Shown in pieces: positions 36,727-44,456 of a stretch of DNA of 64,000 nt. A program made the translations under genes and the position numbers. The number at the start of each line of letters is the position of its first letter. The stretch's first letter is position 1. The stretch lies in contig JAJYUB010000002.1 in the NCBI GenBank assembly GCA_021792795.1, forward strand, positions 62,001 through 126,000. The letters run 5' to 3'. This DNA is from Acidobacteriota bacterium (GTDB lineage Bacteria > Acidobacteriota > Terriglobia > Terriglobales > Acidobacteriaceae). Under the pieces are notes generated by a model that saw only the letters and a list, made by a program, of their open reading frames with translations, made no database searches and was not told the origin of the DNA.

Positions 36727-38160
36727 CTACTGAAACAGGCGCATCAGCCCTTGCGCGGGCAAATCGGGACGAAGATATTTGCGCGGATTTCCATCGGCTT
36801 CCGTCAACGCTTCCGCCGCAAGGTACCCGCTGCGAACAGCGCCTTCCATCGTCGACGGCCAGCCGGTCGCGGTCCAGTCTCCCGCCAGAAAAATCCCCCG
36901 CCACGCCGTGACCGGTCCGGGTCGATAGGCGTCCAGTCCCGGCGAAACGGAAAACGTGGCCCGCACTTCTTTCACCACCGCGGCCTTCAACAGCTTCGCT
37001 TCCCGCACCACTGGAAAGAATTCCGCCAGCTCCCGCAAAGCCAAATCGAGGATTTCCTGACGGGACAAGGGCACCAGCGATTTTGACGCGCTCACAACTA
37101 ACTCCAGATAGCTTCCTGCGTCGTCGGACCGCCGCTGCGGCTGTAGCAAGGTCTTGTTGTACATCCATTGGATCGTGGTATCGAGCAGGACTGCGTGTTC
37201 CAGGTCGGTGATACGCCGATCGAACCAGAGGTGAATGCCTGTGATGGGCGAGTGTTGAAAATGTCCCAGCTTCTCCGCGAGCGACGCAGACGCGGGACCG
37301 GGCGAGGCCGGTAACAGCGGCAACAGCTTCTGCATCGATTCAAACGGGACCGCCAGCACCACAGCATCCGCCTCCACGCTGCCGTCTTCATCCCCGATTC
37401 GCCAGCGGCGACTGCCCTCGTCATACTGGAAGCTGTCCACGCTTTTGCGCAGGCCCACTTCCCCGCCGTGCGACTGAATGAATCCGACCGCGTGCGAATA
37501 CAGTTCGCTCAACGGAATCGTGGGAACTCCCATCCAACCCGCCTGCGCAGACTGCATGAACGAAGTTCGAAACACCATCGCCGCATAATGGACGGAAACG
37601 CGGTCCAGGTCTTCGTTCAGCGCGCTCGCCAGCACTGGATTCCAGAACCGGTCGATGGCGCGCCGCGTTTGTCCGTGGCGGGCCAGCCAGGCTGCAAAGT
37701 TTTCTCCGCCATCCGCGGGAACGCCTCGCAGAAAACTCATCATGCCCCGGCTGATCGCAAACTTGTCCGTCAGCGACAGCGTGGAGGAACGAAGAAATGA
37801 AAATGCATTGTGCAGCGGCGCAGGCAAACTTCCCGGCCGCAGCAGACTCTTCCGTCCGCCTGGTTCAAGAAAGGCAATGCGATCGAACCAGCGAATCCGA
37901 TCGGCCACGCCGAGCTGCTTGTAGAAGGCGATGAGGTTGGTACAGCAGCCCAAAAGAACATGCTGGCAATTGTCGACGACTTCGCCCGTGCCGGGATGTT
38001 CATACGAGGATGCCCGCCCGCCGACATACGGACGCCGCTCGACCAAGTGAACGCGATAGCCGGATTCCACCAGCGCACAGGCCGCGGACAGACCGGCCAG
38101 GCCGCCCCCGACAACAGCGACATCGCGAATACCGTGCGTGTCAGTTGGCTTGTTCGCCAT
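36727..38160 (-). CDS. hpnE: Hydroxysqualene dehydroxylase HpnE (squalene-associated FAD-dependent desaturase)
   Basis: A 477-residue flavoenzyme that completes squalene synthesis by removing the hydroxyl of hydroxysqualene. The FAD-binding motif is DVAVVGGGLAGLSAACAL followed by LVERRPYVGGRASSY, and the C-terminal flavin segment GIFLAGDWTATGWPSTMEG is present. The start is placed at MANKPTDT (38160); an ATG six codons upstream (38178) is also possible and would leave 7 bases to the hpnD stop. It is the last gene of the long leftward hopanoid operon and follows hpnC and hpnD as in other hopanoid producers. Confidence 0.95.
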   Translation of the reverse strand: MANKPTDTHGIRDVAVVGGGLAGLSAACALVESGYRVHLVERRPYVGGRASSYEHPGTGEVVDNCQHVLLGCCTNLIAFYKQLGVADRIRWFDRIAFLEPGGRKSLLRPGSLPAPLHNAFSFLRSSTLSLTDKFAISRGMMSFLRGVPADGGENFAAWLARHGQTRRAIDRFWNPVLASALNEDLDRVSVHYAAMVFRTSFMQSAQAGWMGVPTIPLSELYSHAVGFIQSHGGEVGLRKSVDSFQYDEGSRRWRIGDEDGSVEADAVVLAVPFESMQKLLPLLPASPGPASASLAEKLGHFQHSPITGIHLWFDRRITDLEHAVLLDTTIQWMYNKTLLQPQRRSDDAGSYLELVVSASKSLVPLSRQEILDLALRELAEFFPVVREAKLLKAAVVKEVRATFSVSPGLDAYRPGPVTAWRGIFLAGDWTATGWPSTMEGAVRSGYLAAEALTEADGNPRKYLRPDLPAQGLMRLFQ

Positions 38161-38185
38161 GGGTTCCGCCAGAGTCATCGCGAAT

Positions 38186-39115
38186 TTAAATCTCTCTCGA
38201 ATCGTCCCTGCCTGCAAGCCGCAGGCGGAACGCCATCCACAGCCCGCGCGCCAGAATCCACAGCTTCTCTCCCGTGGGCACCCTCACTCGCTCGGCGAAC
38301 ACTTCGTAGTGCGCATTTTCAATCCGCTGCAACAGCCGTCGATAAATCGCCGCCAGCACCCACAACGCCGCCCGGCTGTCCGGCGAAATCAACGGCAAAA
38401 GACTGTCCACCGCCCGGTAATACTGGCGCGCGCGCGCGGCTTCCATTTCCAGCAACGCGCGTTCCTCCGGCGTCAGTTTTCGATCGCCCCGATTTGAAGC
38501 GAACTGCTCCGCCGTCAAGCGATAGCGATTCAGGTCGTCGAGCGGAAGATACATCCGCCCGCGCTCTGCGTCCTCGCGAACATCGCGCAAAATATTTGTC
38601 AGCTGGAACGCGATGCCTGTTTGTTCCGCCAACTTTTCTGCGCGAGGATCGGTGTAACCGAAAATGCGAATGCAAACCAAACCCACGACCGAGGCGACAA
38701 AGTAACAGTACCGATATAAATCGTCGAAGGTCGGATACGTCGTCATCTCCGTGGCAACCGTCGGCCCTGCAATGTCCAGCATGGTCCCCTGCACCAGATG
38801 GTCGAGCAGTTCCGTCGAAATTCCAAACCGCTGTTGCGCATCTAGCAACGCGACAAATACGGGATTGTTCGTGGACTCGCCGGCCGCCGCCCGATGCCAT
38901 TCGTTCAACCACTGTTGCGATTGAAGCAGCCGCTGTTCACGCGGCAGGCCTTCGTCATCCGCCAGGTCGTCCGCATGACGCATGAAGGCGTACACGGCAC
39001 AGACGGCTGCGCGTTTGTGCTTCGGCAATGCGAGAAATGCGTAGTAAAAGTTCTTTGCTTCATGGCGGGCGATCGCTTCGCAGGCGGCATAAGCTCGCGC
39101 AACAGATTCGCTCAC
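38186..39115 (-). CDS. hpnD: Presqualene diphosphate synthase HpnD
   Basis: A 309-residue trans-isoprenyl-diphosphate synthase joining two farnesyl diphosphates into presqualene diphosphate. The start is the GTG at 39115, whose GTGA overlaps the hpnC stop; the frame is open much further upstream but that part lies inside hpnC. The two Asp-rich motifs are FMRHADDLADDE and NILRDVREDAERGR, with YCYFVASVVGLVCIRIFGY between them. All match the squalene/phytoene synthase fold and HpnD in particular. It is co-translated with hpnC. Confidence 0.95.
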   Translation of the reverse strand: MSESVARAYAACEAIARHEAKNFYYAFLALPKHKRAAVCAVYAFMRHADDLADDEGLPREQRLLQSQQWLNEWHRAAAGESTNNPVFVALLDAQQRFGISTELLDHLVQGTMLDIAGPTVATEMTTYPTFDDLYRYCYFVASVVGLVCIRIFGYTDPRAEKLAEQTGIAFQLTNILRDVREDAERGRMYLPLDDLNRYRLTAEQFASNRGDRKLTPEERALLEMEAARARQYYRAVDSLLPLISPDSRAALWVLAAIYRRLLQRIENAHYEVFAERVRVPTGEKLWILARGLWMAFRLRLAGRDDSREI

Positions 39116-40077
39116 GGCGCCTGCCTTGCGGTGAGCCGCGCGGCAAAAGCGCGCAGCAACAACGCAGCTTTGCGCGGCTTGGAAATGACAGGGCGAGAAC
39201 GCAACACGTCGTAGTCCTGTTTTGCGATGGCGCGCAGAATCTCCTGCCCGCCGCGGCTGAACAATGCAAGGTCGACAGCCAGCTCTTTGTCGACGCGACC
39301 GAGCAGCGCCATTCCCGAGGCAAATAATTCCTGCGTGTACGCGACCTCGTGTTCCATCAGCCTGCGAAATTCCGGAGTAAAACACCGGTCCCGAATTTGC
39401 TCTTCACGGACGCCAAAACGCTCCATGTCCGCCAGCGGAAGATAGATCCGGTCCCGCAGATAATCCTCATGGACATCCTGCCAGAAGTTCGCCAGTTGCA
39501 ATGCGGTGCAGGTGAAGTCCGAAAGCCTAAACAACTCCGGCTCGCGATGGCCGCAGGCATAAAGAACCAGGCGCCCAACCGGATTGGCGGAATTGCGGCA
39601 ATAGCCGAACACGTCCTGCATGGTGCGATACCGCGTGACCGTCTGGTCCTGGCGAAATGCAACCAGCAAGTCCGCAAACGGACCTTTTGGAATGTTGCAC
39701 GCCCGGACCGTTTCCGCCAGAGCAACAAAAACAGGGTGACGCGTGACGCCGCGATAGCAGGCGTCCAATTCGCCATTCCAGAAATCCAAGAGCGCCAGCG
39801 ACTGCTGCGCGTCCCCCACCTCGTCTCCCAAATCGTCGGAGATGCGGCAGTAGGCGTAGATGCTCTGAAAGTGCGGCCGTAGGCGCTTGGGCAAAAACCA
39901 TGTGGCAACGTGAAAATTCTCGTAGTGCGATTCAGCCAACTTGCGGCAGTACGCCTGCGCTTCGGCCAGGGTTGGCACATGCTCTGGCAAGCGATATTCC
40001 GCCGGAAGTTTTTTCCACGCTGCCTCCAGCGCCTGTTCGGAATTTCTGTCCGTTTGTTGCAGTCCGCTAGCCATCAT
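39112..40077 (-). CDS. hpnC: Hydroxysqualene synthase HpnC
   Basis: A 321-residue squalene/phytoene-synthase-fold enzyme converting presqualene diphosphate to hydroxysqualene. YCRISDDLGDEVGD and FWQDVHEDYLRDRIYLPL are the two Asp-rich motifs, and SHYENFHVATWFLPKRLRPH is the HpnC-type start (quoted as NFHVATWFLPK). The start is at 40077, where GAGGG precedes tandem ATG codons; it overlaps the end of the upstream dehydrogenase gene by 11 bases. The stop overlaps the GTG of hpnD. Confidence 0.95.
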   Translation of the reverse strand: MMASGLQQTDRNSEQALEAAWKKLPAEYRLPEHVPTLAEAQAYCRKLAESHYENFHVATWFLPKRLRPHFQSIYAYCRISDDLGDEVGDAQQSLALLDFWNGELDACYRGVTRHPVFVALAETVRACNIPKGPFADLLVAFRQDQTVTRYRTMQDVFGYCRNSANPVGRLVLYACGHREPELFRLSDFTCTALQLANFWQDVHEDYLRDRIYLPLADMERFGVREEQIRDRCFTPEFRRLMEHEVAYTQELFASGMALLGRVDKELAVDLALFSRGGQEILRAIAKQDYDVLRSRPVISKPRKAALLLRAFAARLTARQAP

Positions 40078-41185
40078 ACGGTCCCTCGCCGGGATGGATC
40101 GCAATTTTGATGTCGTTGCTTCGATGCAGAAACCGCCGGAAAACAGGGACCAGTTCCTCCAGGGGAGCGCTTCCGGTCAGGAACCTGCCGCTTTCGAAAC
40201 CGCCGCTCGCAATCCAATCGAATGCCCGGCGGCATACGGACGGACGATGATGGAAGCTGGCGCGCAGCGTAAGGTCGTTATAATGCAGGCGATTGGTATC
40301 GAGCGCCACTTGGGTGCCCGCCGCGCATCCGCCAAAGAAATTGACCACTCCGCCTTTGCGCGCCATGTCCACGGCCCACTGCCAGGTCTCGGGCAACGCA
40401 ACCGCTTCCACCACCGAGTCGGCGCCGCGGCCCTGCGGAGTCAGCGCGCGAACGGATGCGATCACGTCGTCGGTCTTGGTGGTCTGCACAATGTGGCGAG
40501 CTCCAAACGAACGCGCCAGTTCCACCTGCTCCGGGTGCTTCACCACCGCAATCACGTCGGTGCCGTTGAGGGCGGCTGCGTGAATGAACATCAGTCCAAT
40601 GGGCCCGGCGCCGATCACAACCATCTGGTCCCCCGGCTGGATGCCGGTCTCATCCATGCCGTGCAATACGCAGGCTAGCGGTTCTGTCAGCGCCGCATGC
40701 TCCAGCCGAATGGAGTCGGGAACGCGAAACGTATTTATCGCGACGATGCGCGCGGGAATTCGAAAATATTCGGCGTACGCGCCGTTGTTGAATATCAGGT
40801 CGTCACACAGATTTTCCTGTTGCCGCCGGCAGAAATAGCATTCGCCGCAGGGCGCGGAATTCACCGCGACCACGCGGTCCCCTTCTCGAAACTTTGCAAC
40901 TCCAGCTCCGACCTGTGAAACGACCCCCGCCATCTCATGGCCAAAGGGAGCGGGCGGCCGCAGCATTTTTTTGTGGTACCCTCGGCGAAATACTTTCAGG
41001 TCGGTCCCGCAAGTCAGGGCGGCGGCCACGCGGACAACGATCTCCCCTGCTCCTGCTTCGGGTACTGGCAGCCTCTCAATCCGGACATCTTCTTTGCCGT
41101 ACAAAACGGCGGCGTTCATTTCAGCGGCCATATCGATAGTTTCGCAGAATGCATCGTGGGTCGATCGACTTGTGGTTTCTTTCAT
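40067..41185 (-). CDS. Zinc-dependent medium-chain alcohol dehydrogenase, second copy
   Basis: A 372-residue MDR-family oxidoreductase. The catalytic zinc ligands fit TCGTDLKVF (Cys) and PFGHEMAGVV (His/Glu); the structural zinc loop is CGECYFCRRQQENLC. The NAD(P)-binding turn is MVVIGAGPIGLMFIHAA. It resembles threonine/sorbitol-dehydrogenase-like enzymes. It lies between a related dehydrogenase and hpnC, overlapping hpnC, so it belongs to the hopanoid operon. A role in reducing the ribosyl aldehyde of hopanoid side chains is inference. The start at 41185 has a weak ribosome-binding site; ATGs at 41131 and 41119 are alternatives. Confidence 0.88.
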   Translation of the reverse strand: MKETTSRSTHDAFCETIDMAAEMNAAVLYGKEDVRIERLPVPEAGAGEIVVRVAAALTCGTDLKVFRRGYHKKMLRPPAPFGHEMAGVVSQVGAGVAKFREGDRVVAVNSAPCGECYFCRRQQENLCDDLIFNNGAYAEYFRIPARIVAINTFRVPDSIRLEHAALTEPLACVLHGMDETGIQPGDQMVVIGAGPIGLMFIHAAALNGTDVIAVVKHPEQVELARSFGARHIVQTTKTDDVIASVRALTPQGRGADSVVEAVALPETWQWAVDMARKGGVVNFFGGCAAGTQVALDTNRLHYNDLTLRASFHHRPSVCRRAFDWIASGGFESGRFLTGSAPLEELVPVFRRFLHRSNDIKIAIHPGEGPYDG

Positions 41186-41213
41186 CTTTAGACATCAGGG
41201 AACGTGGAGACGA

Positions 41214-42317
41214 TTACGGTTGAATCACAACTTTCATCGAATCCGGTTTCGGTTCCGATGCGAACGCAATGGCCTCCGCCGCCTGTTCCAGCGGAAAGGT
41301 GTGGGAGATCAAACGGGTCAAATCGAAGCGATCTGGATAACCGTCCAGGACCAATTGCGAAGCTTGCTGCAAAACGTCCGCGGAAGAACTGTAAGACCCG
41401 ATCAGAGATTTTTCGTCCATGCATATCGCGGCCGGATCGATCACAACTTCGCTGTGCTGCGTGGCGGCAAACAACAGCACGCGGCCGCCAAAACGGACCG
41501 CGTCCATCGCGGGGCGGATCAGCGCATTGCCGCCCACCGCGACAATCGCAACATCCGCGCCGCGCCCTTCCGTGTGTTCCTTCACGATGGCGCTGGGGTC
41601 CTGCTTGTCGGCATAGATCGGGTGGTGCAGATCGAATTGCGCCGCAGCTTCGTGGCGCGAAGCATACAGGTCGGAAGTCAGCACTGTCGCGCCCGTCTGC
41701 CGGGCCAGTGCGGCCAGTAAAATCCCGATCGGTCCTTGTCCGATCACCAGCACGGTCTCATCGGCTGCAAGACGCAGGTTGTGGATCGCCTTATAGCAGG
41801 TATTCACGGGCTCAATCCACAGCGCCTGTTCAAACGGAACATGGTCCGGAATGCGCACCAGGCCGCGTTCCACAATCCAGTCCATCACGCGGATGTATTC
41901 CGCGAAGCCGCCGCCCGCGGGTTCAAATCCAGCCGTGCATCCCACGCGTTTATAGCTCTCGCATTGGGAGAAAGTTTTTTTCCTACAGTAATAACAGCCC
42001 TTCCCGCATGGAATGTGATGAAAAGCCATGACCCGGTCGCCGACCCTCCAGCCGCTCACCTTATCGCCGACGGCTGCAATCGTTCCCGCCATTTCGTGGC
42101 CGAAAATCCTTGGAGCGGAGTGCGAACCGCTATGGATCTTTTTCAGGTCAGTGCCGCAAATCCCGCAGCTATGAATCCGGACCAGAACTTCGCCCGGACC
42201 AATGGTTGGAACAGGTACGCTTTCCACGCGAACGTCGTTGACGCCGCGATAGATGGCAGCCCGCATGGTTGCGGGCACGACATGACTTGAAGAATTGTAT
42301 GGTTTCACTCTTTCCAT
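41214..42317 (-). CDS. Zinc-dependent medium-chain alcohol dehydrogenase, first copy
   Basis: A 367-residue MDR-family enzyme. Catalytic zinc ligands lie in SCGICGTDLKKIH and IFGHEMAGTI. The structural-zinc loop CGKGCYYCRKKTFSQC differs from its downstream paralogue. The nucleotide turn is VLVIGQGPIGILLAAL. The start is put at MERVKPYN (42317), just after the hpnG stop. The pair shares only the general family pattern, so it is an old duplication or two separate recruitments. Position directly after hpnG suggests action on the product of HpnG; the substrate is not proven. Confidence 0.88.
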   Translation of the reverse strand: MERVKPYNSSSHVVPATMRAAIYRGVNDVRVESVPVPTIGPGEVLVRIHSCGICGTDLKKIHSGSHSAPRIFGHEMAGTIAAVGDKVSGWRVGDRVMAFHHIPCGKGCYYCRKKTFSQCESYKRVGCTAGFEPAGGGFAEYIRVMDWIVERGLVRIPDHVPFEQALWIEPVNTCYKAIHNLRLAADETVLVIGQGPIGILLAALARQTGATVLTSDLYASRHEAAAQFDLHHPIYADKQDPSAIVKEHTEGRGADVAIVAVGGNALIRPAMDAVRFGGRVLLFAATQHSEVVIDPAAICMDEKSLIGSYSSSADVLQQASQLVLDGYPDRFDLTRLISHTFPLEQAAEAIAFASEPKPDSMKVVIQP

Positions 42318-42318
42318 T

Positions 42319-42996
42319 TTATTCCGCTTGCTCGATAATCTGGCGCAAGGCTCGCGCAATCAGCCGCGATGCCTGCGCAGACTGTTTTCCCAGCCTGAAC
42401 GTGGTCGGAATCAGCCATGGGTGCAATGCTACATAAATCGCAAACGAGCTGCCGCGAAATCCGCCCTGCTCGTCGGTAAAACGACCAAAATCCGGCAGAT
42501 TGTCGTCGACCCGGTCGCTGATGGCGCGAAGCGCGCGAAATGGCAGATGGCGCATTTTCGCCAGCCGCGCAACCGTGGCCGTCTCCATATCGGCCAGGTC
42601 CGCATTCCAACGGGCAGCCAGCGCCAGCTTTTCATCGCGCCCAACCGCATGGTCCGTCGTCACCAAGGTCCCATCTCCATCGCTGCATTCAAATCGCTCT
42701 CCGGTCCGATCGTCGATGATCGTCGCCGGCCAATGGACCCTGTCGACGGCCATCCCAGCGCGCAATGCCCCAGCATATCCTACGGAAATGATCGAGTCGA
42801 TTCGTCCTCTGGACGACGCCAACTCCAGCGCGCGCGCCGCCCGCTTGCCGCCCATGCCCGCGCACGCCACAATCGCGCCATCGCACTCCCAGACGCTCGT
42901 GCCTTCACGGCGCGAGACGTTGCTTACAGGCCAGTCACGCACCAGCGGCGCTACTTCGCGCGGCAGCGCGGCAAGGATTGCGACCCGTGGGTTCAT
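42319..42996 (-). CDS. hpnG: Adenosylhopane nucleosidase/phosphorylase HpnG
   Basis: A 225-residue nucleoside-phosphorylase-fold enzyme that removes adenine from adenosylhopane, giving the (phospho)ribosyl hopane. The core is ACAGMGGKRAARALEL, IISVGYAGALRAGM and DLADMETATVARLA (the Glu of the Met-Glu pair binds the ribose), then RAISDRVDDNLPDF. The start at 42996 overlaps the hpnA stop as ATGA; a longer frame upstream is inside hpnA. It sits between hpnA and the two dehydrogenases. Confidence 0.93.
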   Translation of the reverse strand: MNPRVAILAALPREVAPLVRDWPVSNVSRREGTSVWECDGAIVACAGMGGKRAARALELASSRGRIDSIISVGYAGALRAGMAVDRVHWPATIIDDRTGERFECSDGDGTLVTTDHAVGRDEKLALAARWNADLADMETATVARLAKMRHLPFRALRAISDRVDDNLPDFGRFTDEQGGFRGSSFAIYVALHPWLIPTTFRLGKQSAQASRLIARALRQIIEQAE

Positions 42997-43988
42997 GACT
43001 TGGGCGCGTACCCGTGGACGCGAAACCAATCGATGGCGGCGCGCAACGCAGAGTCCACCGGAAGCGCCTGATGGCCCAAATCCCGCTCCGCCTTCGCGGA
43101 ACTGGCAAACATTTTCTTCTTTCCCATTCGCACCGCTTCCACCGTGGCACGCGGTTCACGCCCGAGAATGCGGCCGGTGATCCATTCATCGAAGAATGCA
43201 AACGTCATGGCGACAAAATGCGGCACCCGCATGGTCGGCGACGGCAGCCCTGTCATCGCCGCCATGCGGTCCAGAATCTGTTTCAGGGTAAGATTCTCTC
43301 CGCCCAGAATGTACCGTTCTCCCGGCGTCCCACGCTCCAGTGCGGCCACGTGCATGTCCGCGATCCGCTCAACGTCCACCAGATTCAGGCCCGTGTCCAC
43401 ATACGCCGGAAATTTCCGATTGAGAAAATCCACGACGATGCGACCCGTGGGAGTGGGTTTCGCGTCATTCGCCCCAATCGGCGTGGTTGGGTTCAGAATC
43501 ACGACATGCTGGCCGAGACGGGCGGCCTCGATCGCCTCGAGTTCGGCAAGAAACTTAGACCGCTTGTAGGGGCCGATCATGTTCTCGATCGATACCGGCG
43601 TTTCCTCATCGACGACGCTGCCGTCGGAGCGAAATCCCATGGTCGCTACGCTGGAGGTGTAAACGACGCGACCGACGCCTGTTTCCCGCGCCAGCCGCAG
43701 CAACGCCCGCGTCCCCTCAACGTTGGCCGCATACATCGTCTTTGGATCGGGCACCCACAGCCGGTAATCCGCCGCAACATGGACCAGCGCATCGCAACCG
43801 GAAATCGCGCCGCGCAGGTCCTCAGGCTGAAGCAGGTCGCCTGTCACCAACTCCGCATTCAGTCCTTCCAGATGTTCCGTGCGGCTGTTTTTTCGCGCCA
43901 GCAGACGCAACTCCGCGCCTGCTGCGTACAGCGACTGGGCAACATGGCTCCCGACAAATCCAGTGGCTCCGGTGAGGAAGATGCGCAT
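42993..43988 (-). CDS. hpnA: Hopanoid-associated sugar epimerase HpnA
   Basis: A 331-residue extended short-chain dehydrogenase. It opens FLTGATGFVGSHVAQSL, the NAD-binding turn, and has YTSSVATMGF and the catalytic GPYKRSKFLAE (Y-x3-K). VHVAADYRLWVPDP and NPTTPIGANDAKPTPTG are typical of HpnA. Its precise reaction in hopanoid synthesis is still unclear. The stop overlaps hpnG, and the start lies 42 bases after the small unknown gene. Confidence 0.93.
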   Translation of the reverse strand: MRIFLTGATGFVGSHVAQSLYAAGAELRLLARKNSRTEHLEGLNAELVTGDLLQPEDLRGAISGCDALVHVAADYRLWVPDPKTMYAANVEGTRALLRLARETGVGRVVYTSSVATMGFRSDGSVVDEETPVSIENMIGPYKRSKFLAELEAIEAARLGQHVVILNPTTPIGANDAKPTPTGRIVVDFLNRKFPAYVDTGLNLVDVERIADMHVAALERGTPGERYILGGENLTLKQILDRMAAMTGLPSPTMRVPHFVAMTFAFFDEWITGRILGREPRATVEAVRMGKKKMFASSAKAERDLGHQALPVDSALRAAIDWFRVHGYAPKS

Positions 43989-44030: not shown

Positions 44031-44456
44031 CTAGTCCAGCGCTTCCGCCTGGATGCCGATGTTTTTCTCCCCGGCGGCCTTCTTTTCCCAATATCGCTGC
44101 ACCCACGCTTCCCAGCTCTTGCCCGCCGCGGAATCGCGTCCGGTAAAGGCCAGACCGGCAATTTCAGAGTACGGGACTGACACACGCTCCGAAGTATCTT
44201 TCGGCATGATGCGAACAATCGCGCGGTGCAGCACGGGGGCGGGCCGTCGATCGAAGATGTACCCCTCGATGCGCACCCCGGTCTTCAGCGTAATGGTCAC
44301 ATCGCCGCGATAGTCGAAGGCCTGCTCCAGCGCTTCCCGAGTTTCTTCCTCGGTGGCCATGGGTGGAATCCATCCTTCCAGCACTTCGTGTTCCGTCCCC
44401 GGCGCAACTTCCATCGTGTCCGGACTGGAAAGCGGCCCGGCCGCAGGTTGGGTCAT
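44031..44456 (-). CDS. Small uncharacterised protein of the hopanoid operon
   Basis: A 141-residue soluble protein with no signal peptide or helix anchor. The middle, YRGDVTITLKTGVRIEGYIF then AIVRIMPKD and RVSVPYSEIAGLAF, alternates short strands in a way that resembles an Sm-like or small beta-barrel fold; the ends are helical (ETREALEQAFD and SWEAWVQRYWEKKA). Its ATG overlaps the hpnH stop as ATGA, so it is made with HpnH. No known hopanoid gene name applies. It might be a regulator or an assembly partner for HpnH or Shc; this is inference only. Confidence 0.85.
   Translation of the reverse strand: MTQPAAGPLSSPDTMEVAPGTEHEVLEGWIPPMATEEETREALEQAFDYRGDVTITLKTGVRIEGYIFDRRPAPVLHRAIVRIMPKDTSERVSVPYSEIAGLAFTGRDSAAGKSWEAWVQRYWEKKAAGEKNIGIQAEALD

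Follow-up and report, generated by a model that had tools for sequence, protein, structure and literature searches.

Two zinc-dependent dehydrogenase genes beside hpnG as candidates for completion of the hopanoid polyol tail in Acidobacteriota

The hopanoid gene run and its two dehydrogenase genes

The window analysed here, a 64,000-nucleotide stretch of contig JAJYUB010000002.1 from an Acidobacteriota genome assembly (GCA_021792795.1), contains a minus-strand run of genes in the order ispH-shc-hpnH-ug3-hpnA-hpnG-ADH1-ADH2-hpnC-hpnD-hpnE, in which neighbours overlap or nearly touch. As the initial annotation described, two genes of the medium-chain dehydrogenase/reductase (MDR) family, here called ADH1 and ADH2, lie between hpnG and hpnC on the same strand, the second of them overlapping hpnC. 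Both are linked to the hopanoid operon through their position and through their pattern of presence and absence across genomes, and they are good but unproven candidates for the enzyme that completes the hopanoid polyol tail. The features of the locus are as follows.

41214–42317, minus strand: ADH1 (ug1 position), 367 residues; zinc MDR dehydrogenase of predicted NAD(H) type, Pfam ADH_N and ADH_zinc_N
40067–41185, minus strand: ADH2 (ug2 position), 372 residues (translated to 40070); zinc MDR dehydrogenase of predicted NADP(H) type, Pfam ADH_N and ADH_zinc_N
42319–42996, minus strand: hpnG-like nucleoside phosphorylase; best NCBIfam match TIGR03468 (HpnG), 78 bits, cut-off 187
42993–43988, minus strand: hpnA, hopanoid-associated epimerase of the short-chain dehydrogenase/reductase (SDR) family; TIGR03466, 476 bits, over cut-off
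44031–44456, minus strand: ug3, conserved small open reading frame (ORF) located after hpnH; 141 residues
44453–45577, minus strand: hpnH, adenosylhopane synthase (radical S-adenosylmethionine enzyme); TIGR03470, 540 bits
45661–47835, minus strand: shc, squalene-hopene cyclase; TIGR01507, 748 bits
47756–48775, minus strand: ispH, head of the run; TIGR00216 / PRK01045, over cut-off
39112–40077, minus strand: hpnC; TIGR03464, 351 bits
38186–39115, minus strand: hpnD; best match TIGR03465, 243 bits, just under the cut-off of 279
36727–38178, minus strand: hpnE; TIGR03467, 502 bits
34150–35625, plus strand: hpnJ, beyond hpnE on the opposite strand; TIGR03471, 753 bits

The hpnA stop codon and the hpnG start share an ATGA overlap, the ADH1 ATG begins 1 nt past the hpnG TAA, and the hpnC ATG (40077) overlaps the end of ADH2, whose stop codon is the TAG at 40069–40067, by 11 nt. 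The gene at 42319–42996 scores below the TIGR03468 cut-off (78 versus 187 bits), and none of the 347 Acidobacteriota genomes searched has an hpnG at this cut-off, which is possibly set too high for Acidobacteriota; position and the best-matching model point to HpnG. Across relatives hpnG is 31–57% identical, where hpnH and hpnA retain about 60–80%, a much faster divergence.

HpnG cleaves adenine off adenosylhopane; the remaining ribose is attached to hopane by its C5, and bacteriohopanetetrol (BHT) forms when the C1 carbonyl of its open-chain form is reduced (PMC12583986). The absence of an assigned enzyme for the conversion of ribosylhopane to BHT, asserted in the initial annotation, still held in this 2025 study, whose survey of alphaproteobacterial hpn clusters brought up no evident further candidate besides hpnA, B, L and M (PMC12583986), and no named ribosylhopane reductase was found in the literature searched. 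The products of the pathway, the bacteriohopanepolyols (BHPs), are standard molecular fossils as well as membrane lipids.

Genes at these positions have been described before. From genomes of acidobacteria, Sinninghe Damste et al. (2017) reported three gene clusters that contain conserved unassigned genes ug1, located after hpnA-hpnG, and ug2, a zinc-binding alcohol dehydrogenase of about 350 residues located before hpnC and linked to hpnC-D-E (PMC5462960). The 2017 text is silent on what ug1 encodes, and position identifies it as ADH1. Both genes were left there as of unknown function, HpnA being proposed for ribosylhopane reduction and no such role for ug1 or ug2; the BHPs of SD1 and SD3 acidobacteria were mostly tetrafunctionalized (PMC5462960). 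The novelty here is thus the functional assignment and its support rather than the genes themselves.

Predicted fold, zinc sites and cofactor preference

ADH1 and ADH2 belong to the zinc-dependent MDR superfamily, each combining a GroES-like catalytic domain with a Rossmann cofactor domain and each matching PF08240 (ADH_N) and PF00107 (ADH_zinc_N) far above the cut-offs. Because the catalytic zinc ligands (Cys, His and Glu) and the four structural-zinc cysteines are invariant in 134 ADH1 and 108 ADH2 sequences, both proteins should be active enzymes. An aspartate or glutamate at the end of the second β-strand of the Rossmann domain is the usual mark of NAD dependence in the MDR family. This position is occupied in ADH1 by Asp in 133 sequences and by Glu in one; in ADH2 it is Lys or Arg in 100 of the 108 sequences, hardly ever with an acidic residue beside it, and corresponds in the alignment to the arginine of ketose reductase 1e3j, an NADP(H) enzyme. 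Read in the light of established MDR knowledge, ADH1 carries the sequence signature of an NAD enzyme and ADH2 that of an NADP enzyme.

The AlphaFold2 models (mean predicted local distance difference test score 90 for each protein) have 4ej6 as their best fold match, with Z 42.8 and a root-mean-square deviation of 2.0 over 335 residues for ADH2 and Z 40.8 and 2.2 over 335 residues for ADH1; 4ejm, which was solved with NADP, is also among the nearest folds. The closest solved relatives by sequence are the ketose reductase 1e3j and sorbitol and threonine dehydrogenases. The top solved relatives belong largely to the polyol dehydrogenase branch, but sequence identity is 25–30%, many other MDR enzymes score only a few Z units away, and ordinary alcohol dehydrogenases rank just after the polyol types. 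With this branch (sorbitol dehydrogenase 1pl6 and ketose reductase 1e3j) the two proteins share the two-domain MDR fold, the catalytic zinc ligands, the structural-zinc Cys quartet and the conserved Glu of the EP motif; they differ in being only about 25–30% identical to it and in their placement in a lipid operon, not in sugar catabolism. No NCBIfam equivalog fits either protein: the best-scoring models for both, scyllo-inosose 3-dehydrogenase IolM and L-threonine 3-dehydrogenase, reach only about 147–164 bits against cut-offs of 380–458, and the HpnZ_proposed model is likewise far under its cut-off. Ahead of the conserved start, the 17–22 N-terminal residues vary between sequences and are modelled poorly, which leaves the true start codons uncertain.

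The initial annotation had also taken a difference between the zinc loops of the two proteins as a sign that they act on different intermediates. This argument fails, as both loops follow the pattern C-x2-C-x2-C-x7-C and the difference is one extra Gly in the ADH1 loop of the window (CGKGCYYC), an insertion limited to four of the 134 ADH1 sequences, all from the closest relatives of the window.

Gene order and co-occurrence with hopanoid genes

In the phylum search, ADH1 orthologues were separated from all other matches by a wide score gap (at least 335 bits in 56 genomes and at most 196 bits elsewhere). The best 80 matches of a contig scan were all acidobacterial; the closest named sequences were metagenome-assembled genomes of Acidobacteria (ADH1 up to 96% identical), followed among these 80 by Edaphobacter, Granulicella, Terriglobus and Acidipila. 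By coordinate comparison, all 39 genomes compared from three families, f1 (the family of the window, most likely Acidobacteriaceae), f5 and f53, have hpnG next to ADH1 on its upstream side and on the same strand, with a gap that is mostly within about 120 bp and at most 790 bp; gene orders reconstructed from individual loci agree. Likewise, hpnG lies immediately upstream of ADH1 in 72 of the 80 named loci, nearly all from Acidobacteriaceae, the remaining eight mostly reflecting the end of a contig, ORF calls that stayed unresolved or an extra ORF. In a further family, f3, the order is hpnG-ADH1-ADH2-hpnC-hpnD-hpnE, with 4-nt overlaps joining hpnG, ADH1 and ADH2. The position of the pair beside hpnG, for which the initial annotation had suggested a comparison across Acidobacteriota, is thus conserved beyond what chance would give.

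In genera in which the operon is split, ADH1 still directly follows hpnG, and ADH2 heads an ADH2-hpnC-hpnD-hpnE operon in 18 of 18 loci (hpnE was uncalled in one). This arrangement, together with the adjacency of ADH2 and hpnD in family f31, could indicate that the two enzymes serve separate branches, ADH1 the side chain and ADH2, with HpnC-D-E, the squalene/isoprenoid branch. Such a division of labour is improbable: the split may have arisen once, by a break between ADH1 and ADH2, and been inherited; known bacteria need no more than hpnC-D-E to make squalene (as cited in PMC5462960); and ADH1 and ADH2 are adjacent in hopanoid-free genomes as well, indicating a shared substrate class.

Presence and absence were compared in a class-level sample of 41 genomes, comprising that of the window and 40 relatives. 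Both ADH1 and ADH2 are present in 23 of these, all of which contain shc and hpnH, and shc and hpnH are both missing from 17 of the 18 genomes lacking the pair, among them the 14 sampled members of a sister family (Fisher p = 1e-10). Across the phylum, hpnH is found in 51 of 56 genomes with ADH1 and in 38 of 291 without it (p = 8e-31). Since the genomes are related and independent losses few, both p-values overstate the evidence. Two genomes that might have been counted as joint losses, G017, which has hpnH but not the pair, and G309, which has neither ADH1 nor an hpnG match, were set aside as uninformative owing to contig ends or missing stretches. In the class to which the window belongs, ADH1 and ADH2 probably each have some part in hopanoid synthesis.

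Candidate role in side-chain reduction

The favoured explanation is that ADH1 and ADH2 form a dedicated pair of polyol-dehydrogenase-type MDR enzymes acting on the C35 hopanoid side chain in the class Terriglobia and some other Acidobacteriota. Once HpnH has attached 5'-deoxyadenosine to hopene and adenine has been removed by HpnG, the ribosyl tail thus freed equilibrates with the open-chain aldose, a substrate that chemically suits a zinc MDR enzyme of the polyol or ketose reductase type. Most likely ADH2, as the NADP(H)-type enzyme, would reduce the carbonyl, either the C35 aldehyde or an isomer's ketone, and so yield BHT; the NAD(H)-type ADH1 could work on this polyol tail too, either as an additional reductase or as a partner interconverting alcohol and ketone. 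We infer the ribosyl tail to be the substrate; which of the two enzymes reduces it, and at which carbon, is a guess, ADH1 appearing the nearer candidate by location and ADH2 the better reductase by predicted cofactor. An extract of Methylobacterium organophilum is reported to reduce ribosylhopane to BHT in an NADPH-dependent manner (Bodlenner, 2015). That activity, which need not belong to an MDR enzyme, is the reaction proposed here.

Several findings weigh against this explanation. ADH1 is missing from 38 of the 89 Acidobacteriota genomes with hpnH. Conversely, five genomes have ADH1 without hpnH: G150, which has shc and an hpn cluster, G247 and G318, which are incomplete, and G257 (100% complete) and G376 (97%), both of family f42, in which the pair is present with neither shc nor hpnH. 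In phylogenetic trees the sequences from f42 fall near those linked to hopanoid genes, either within or next to them, and a single hopanoid-linked clade was neither recovered nor rejected. More distantly related members of the two subfamilies also stand in tandem, often with their order reversed, elsewhere in Acidobacteriota, and some of these genomes are hopanoid-free. In family f31 the order is hpnA-ADH1-ADH2-hpnD with no clear hpnG between or beside these genes; the f31 matches to HpnG score about equally with futalosine and 5'-methylthioadenosine nucleosidase models, such that no HpnG is clearly identifiable in this family.

A strictly hopanoid-only pair is rejected by G257 and G376, and these two genomes together with the 38 that have hpnH without ADH1 also reject a universal ribosylhopane reductase. 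At best the pair may be a lineage-specific one. Because ADH1 is absent from other hopanoid producers of the phylum, the distribution suggests that different lineages solve ribosylhopane reduction differently; in four ADH1-less hopanoid clusters (L207–L210), no alternative conserved oxidoreductase was recognized by eye beside hpnG.

The same distribution bears on whether ADH1 and ADH2 could be general polyol or aldehyde dehydrogenases, placed in the operon by chance and acting on a substrate other than a hopanoid. Besides the two f42 genomes and the scattered looser pairs, which have no constant neighbours, this would account for the nearest non-acidobacterial relative identified for ADH2, a 46% identical protein encoded on a Rhodococcus plasmid, whose gene sits in a sugar operon with DeoR, FGGY-kinase and class II aldolase genes; the same relative also counts in favour of a role on the polyol tail. 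Plasmid relatives are only 33–47% identical, and the Rhodococcus gene is the one whose surroundings were inspected. The absence of the pair from all 17 genomes without shc and hpnH among the close relatives, and the retention of each gene beside hpn genes after the operon split, make a chance placement rather unlikely.

Some further observations concern the pairs outside the canonical operon. In three f42 genomes, two of which lack shc and hpnH, the pair lies after or near a proline dehydrogenase gene (recognized by eye) and not near hpn genes; the third, G104, has a separate shc-hpnH-hpnA-hpnG cluster (L228), in which the next ORF is glycosyltransferase-like, by eye only. Six other loci carry tandem ADH2-like/ADH1-like pairs in reverse order, some of them in genomes without hopanoid genes, and these represent an older module. 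At four f31 loci hpnA-ADH1-ADH2-hpnD is followed by a second shc gene, about 45% identical to that of the window, and an ispH-like gene lies upstream in several f31 loci.

A serious rival for the reductase is HpnA, an SDR enzyme encoded just before hpnG, since hpnA accompanies hpnH and hpnG also where the pair is missing; the zinc dehydrogenases would then carry out later or extra modifications of the polyol tail. The hpnA gene follows hpnH, mostly beside hpnG, in the pair-less clusters L207, L208 and L209 and in L228, where the pair lies elsewhere; the window protein matches the HpnA model well (476 bits), and HpnA is the enzyme suggested in the 2017 study. Hopanoid cluster L210, in contrast, shows no hpnA, and HpnA is judged unlikely to be the reductase.

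Reduction of ribosylhopane to BHT by at least one of ADH1 and ADH2 is accordingly put forward tentatively, as a real possibility. Of the original proposal that one or both dehydrogenases catalyze this step, the operon linkage, the conservation beside hpnG and the suitable kind of enzyme stand, and the zinc-loop argument and a reading of the pair as the missing enzyme in all hopanoid producers do not. The outcome is a list of two candidate genes, directly testable in vitro, whose products have complete active sites and which stay fixed beside hpnG throughout Acidobacteriaceae, cultured strains such as Terriglobus roseus and Edaphobacter among them. A more speculative variant, considered very improbable, is that ADH1 (NAD) and ADH2 (NADP) oxidize and then reduce the tail in succession, taking a hydroxyl to a ketone and back and thereby completing the tetrol and fixing or inverting a tail carbon such as C-34; if true, this would provide an enzymatic basis for the BHT stereoisomers that are used as biomarkers.

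The small ORF ug3, which has no match in Pfam or NCBIfam, is kept directly after hpnH in family f1 and also adjoins a stand-alone hpnH in another family.

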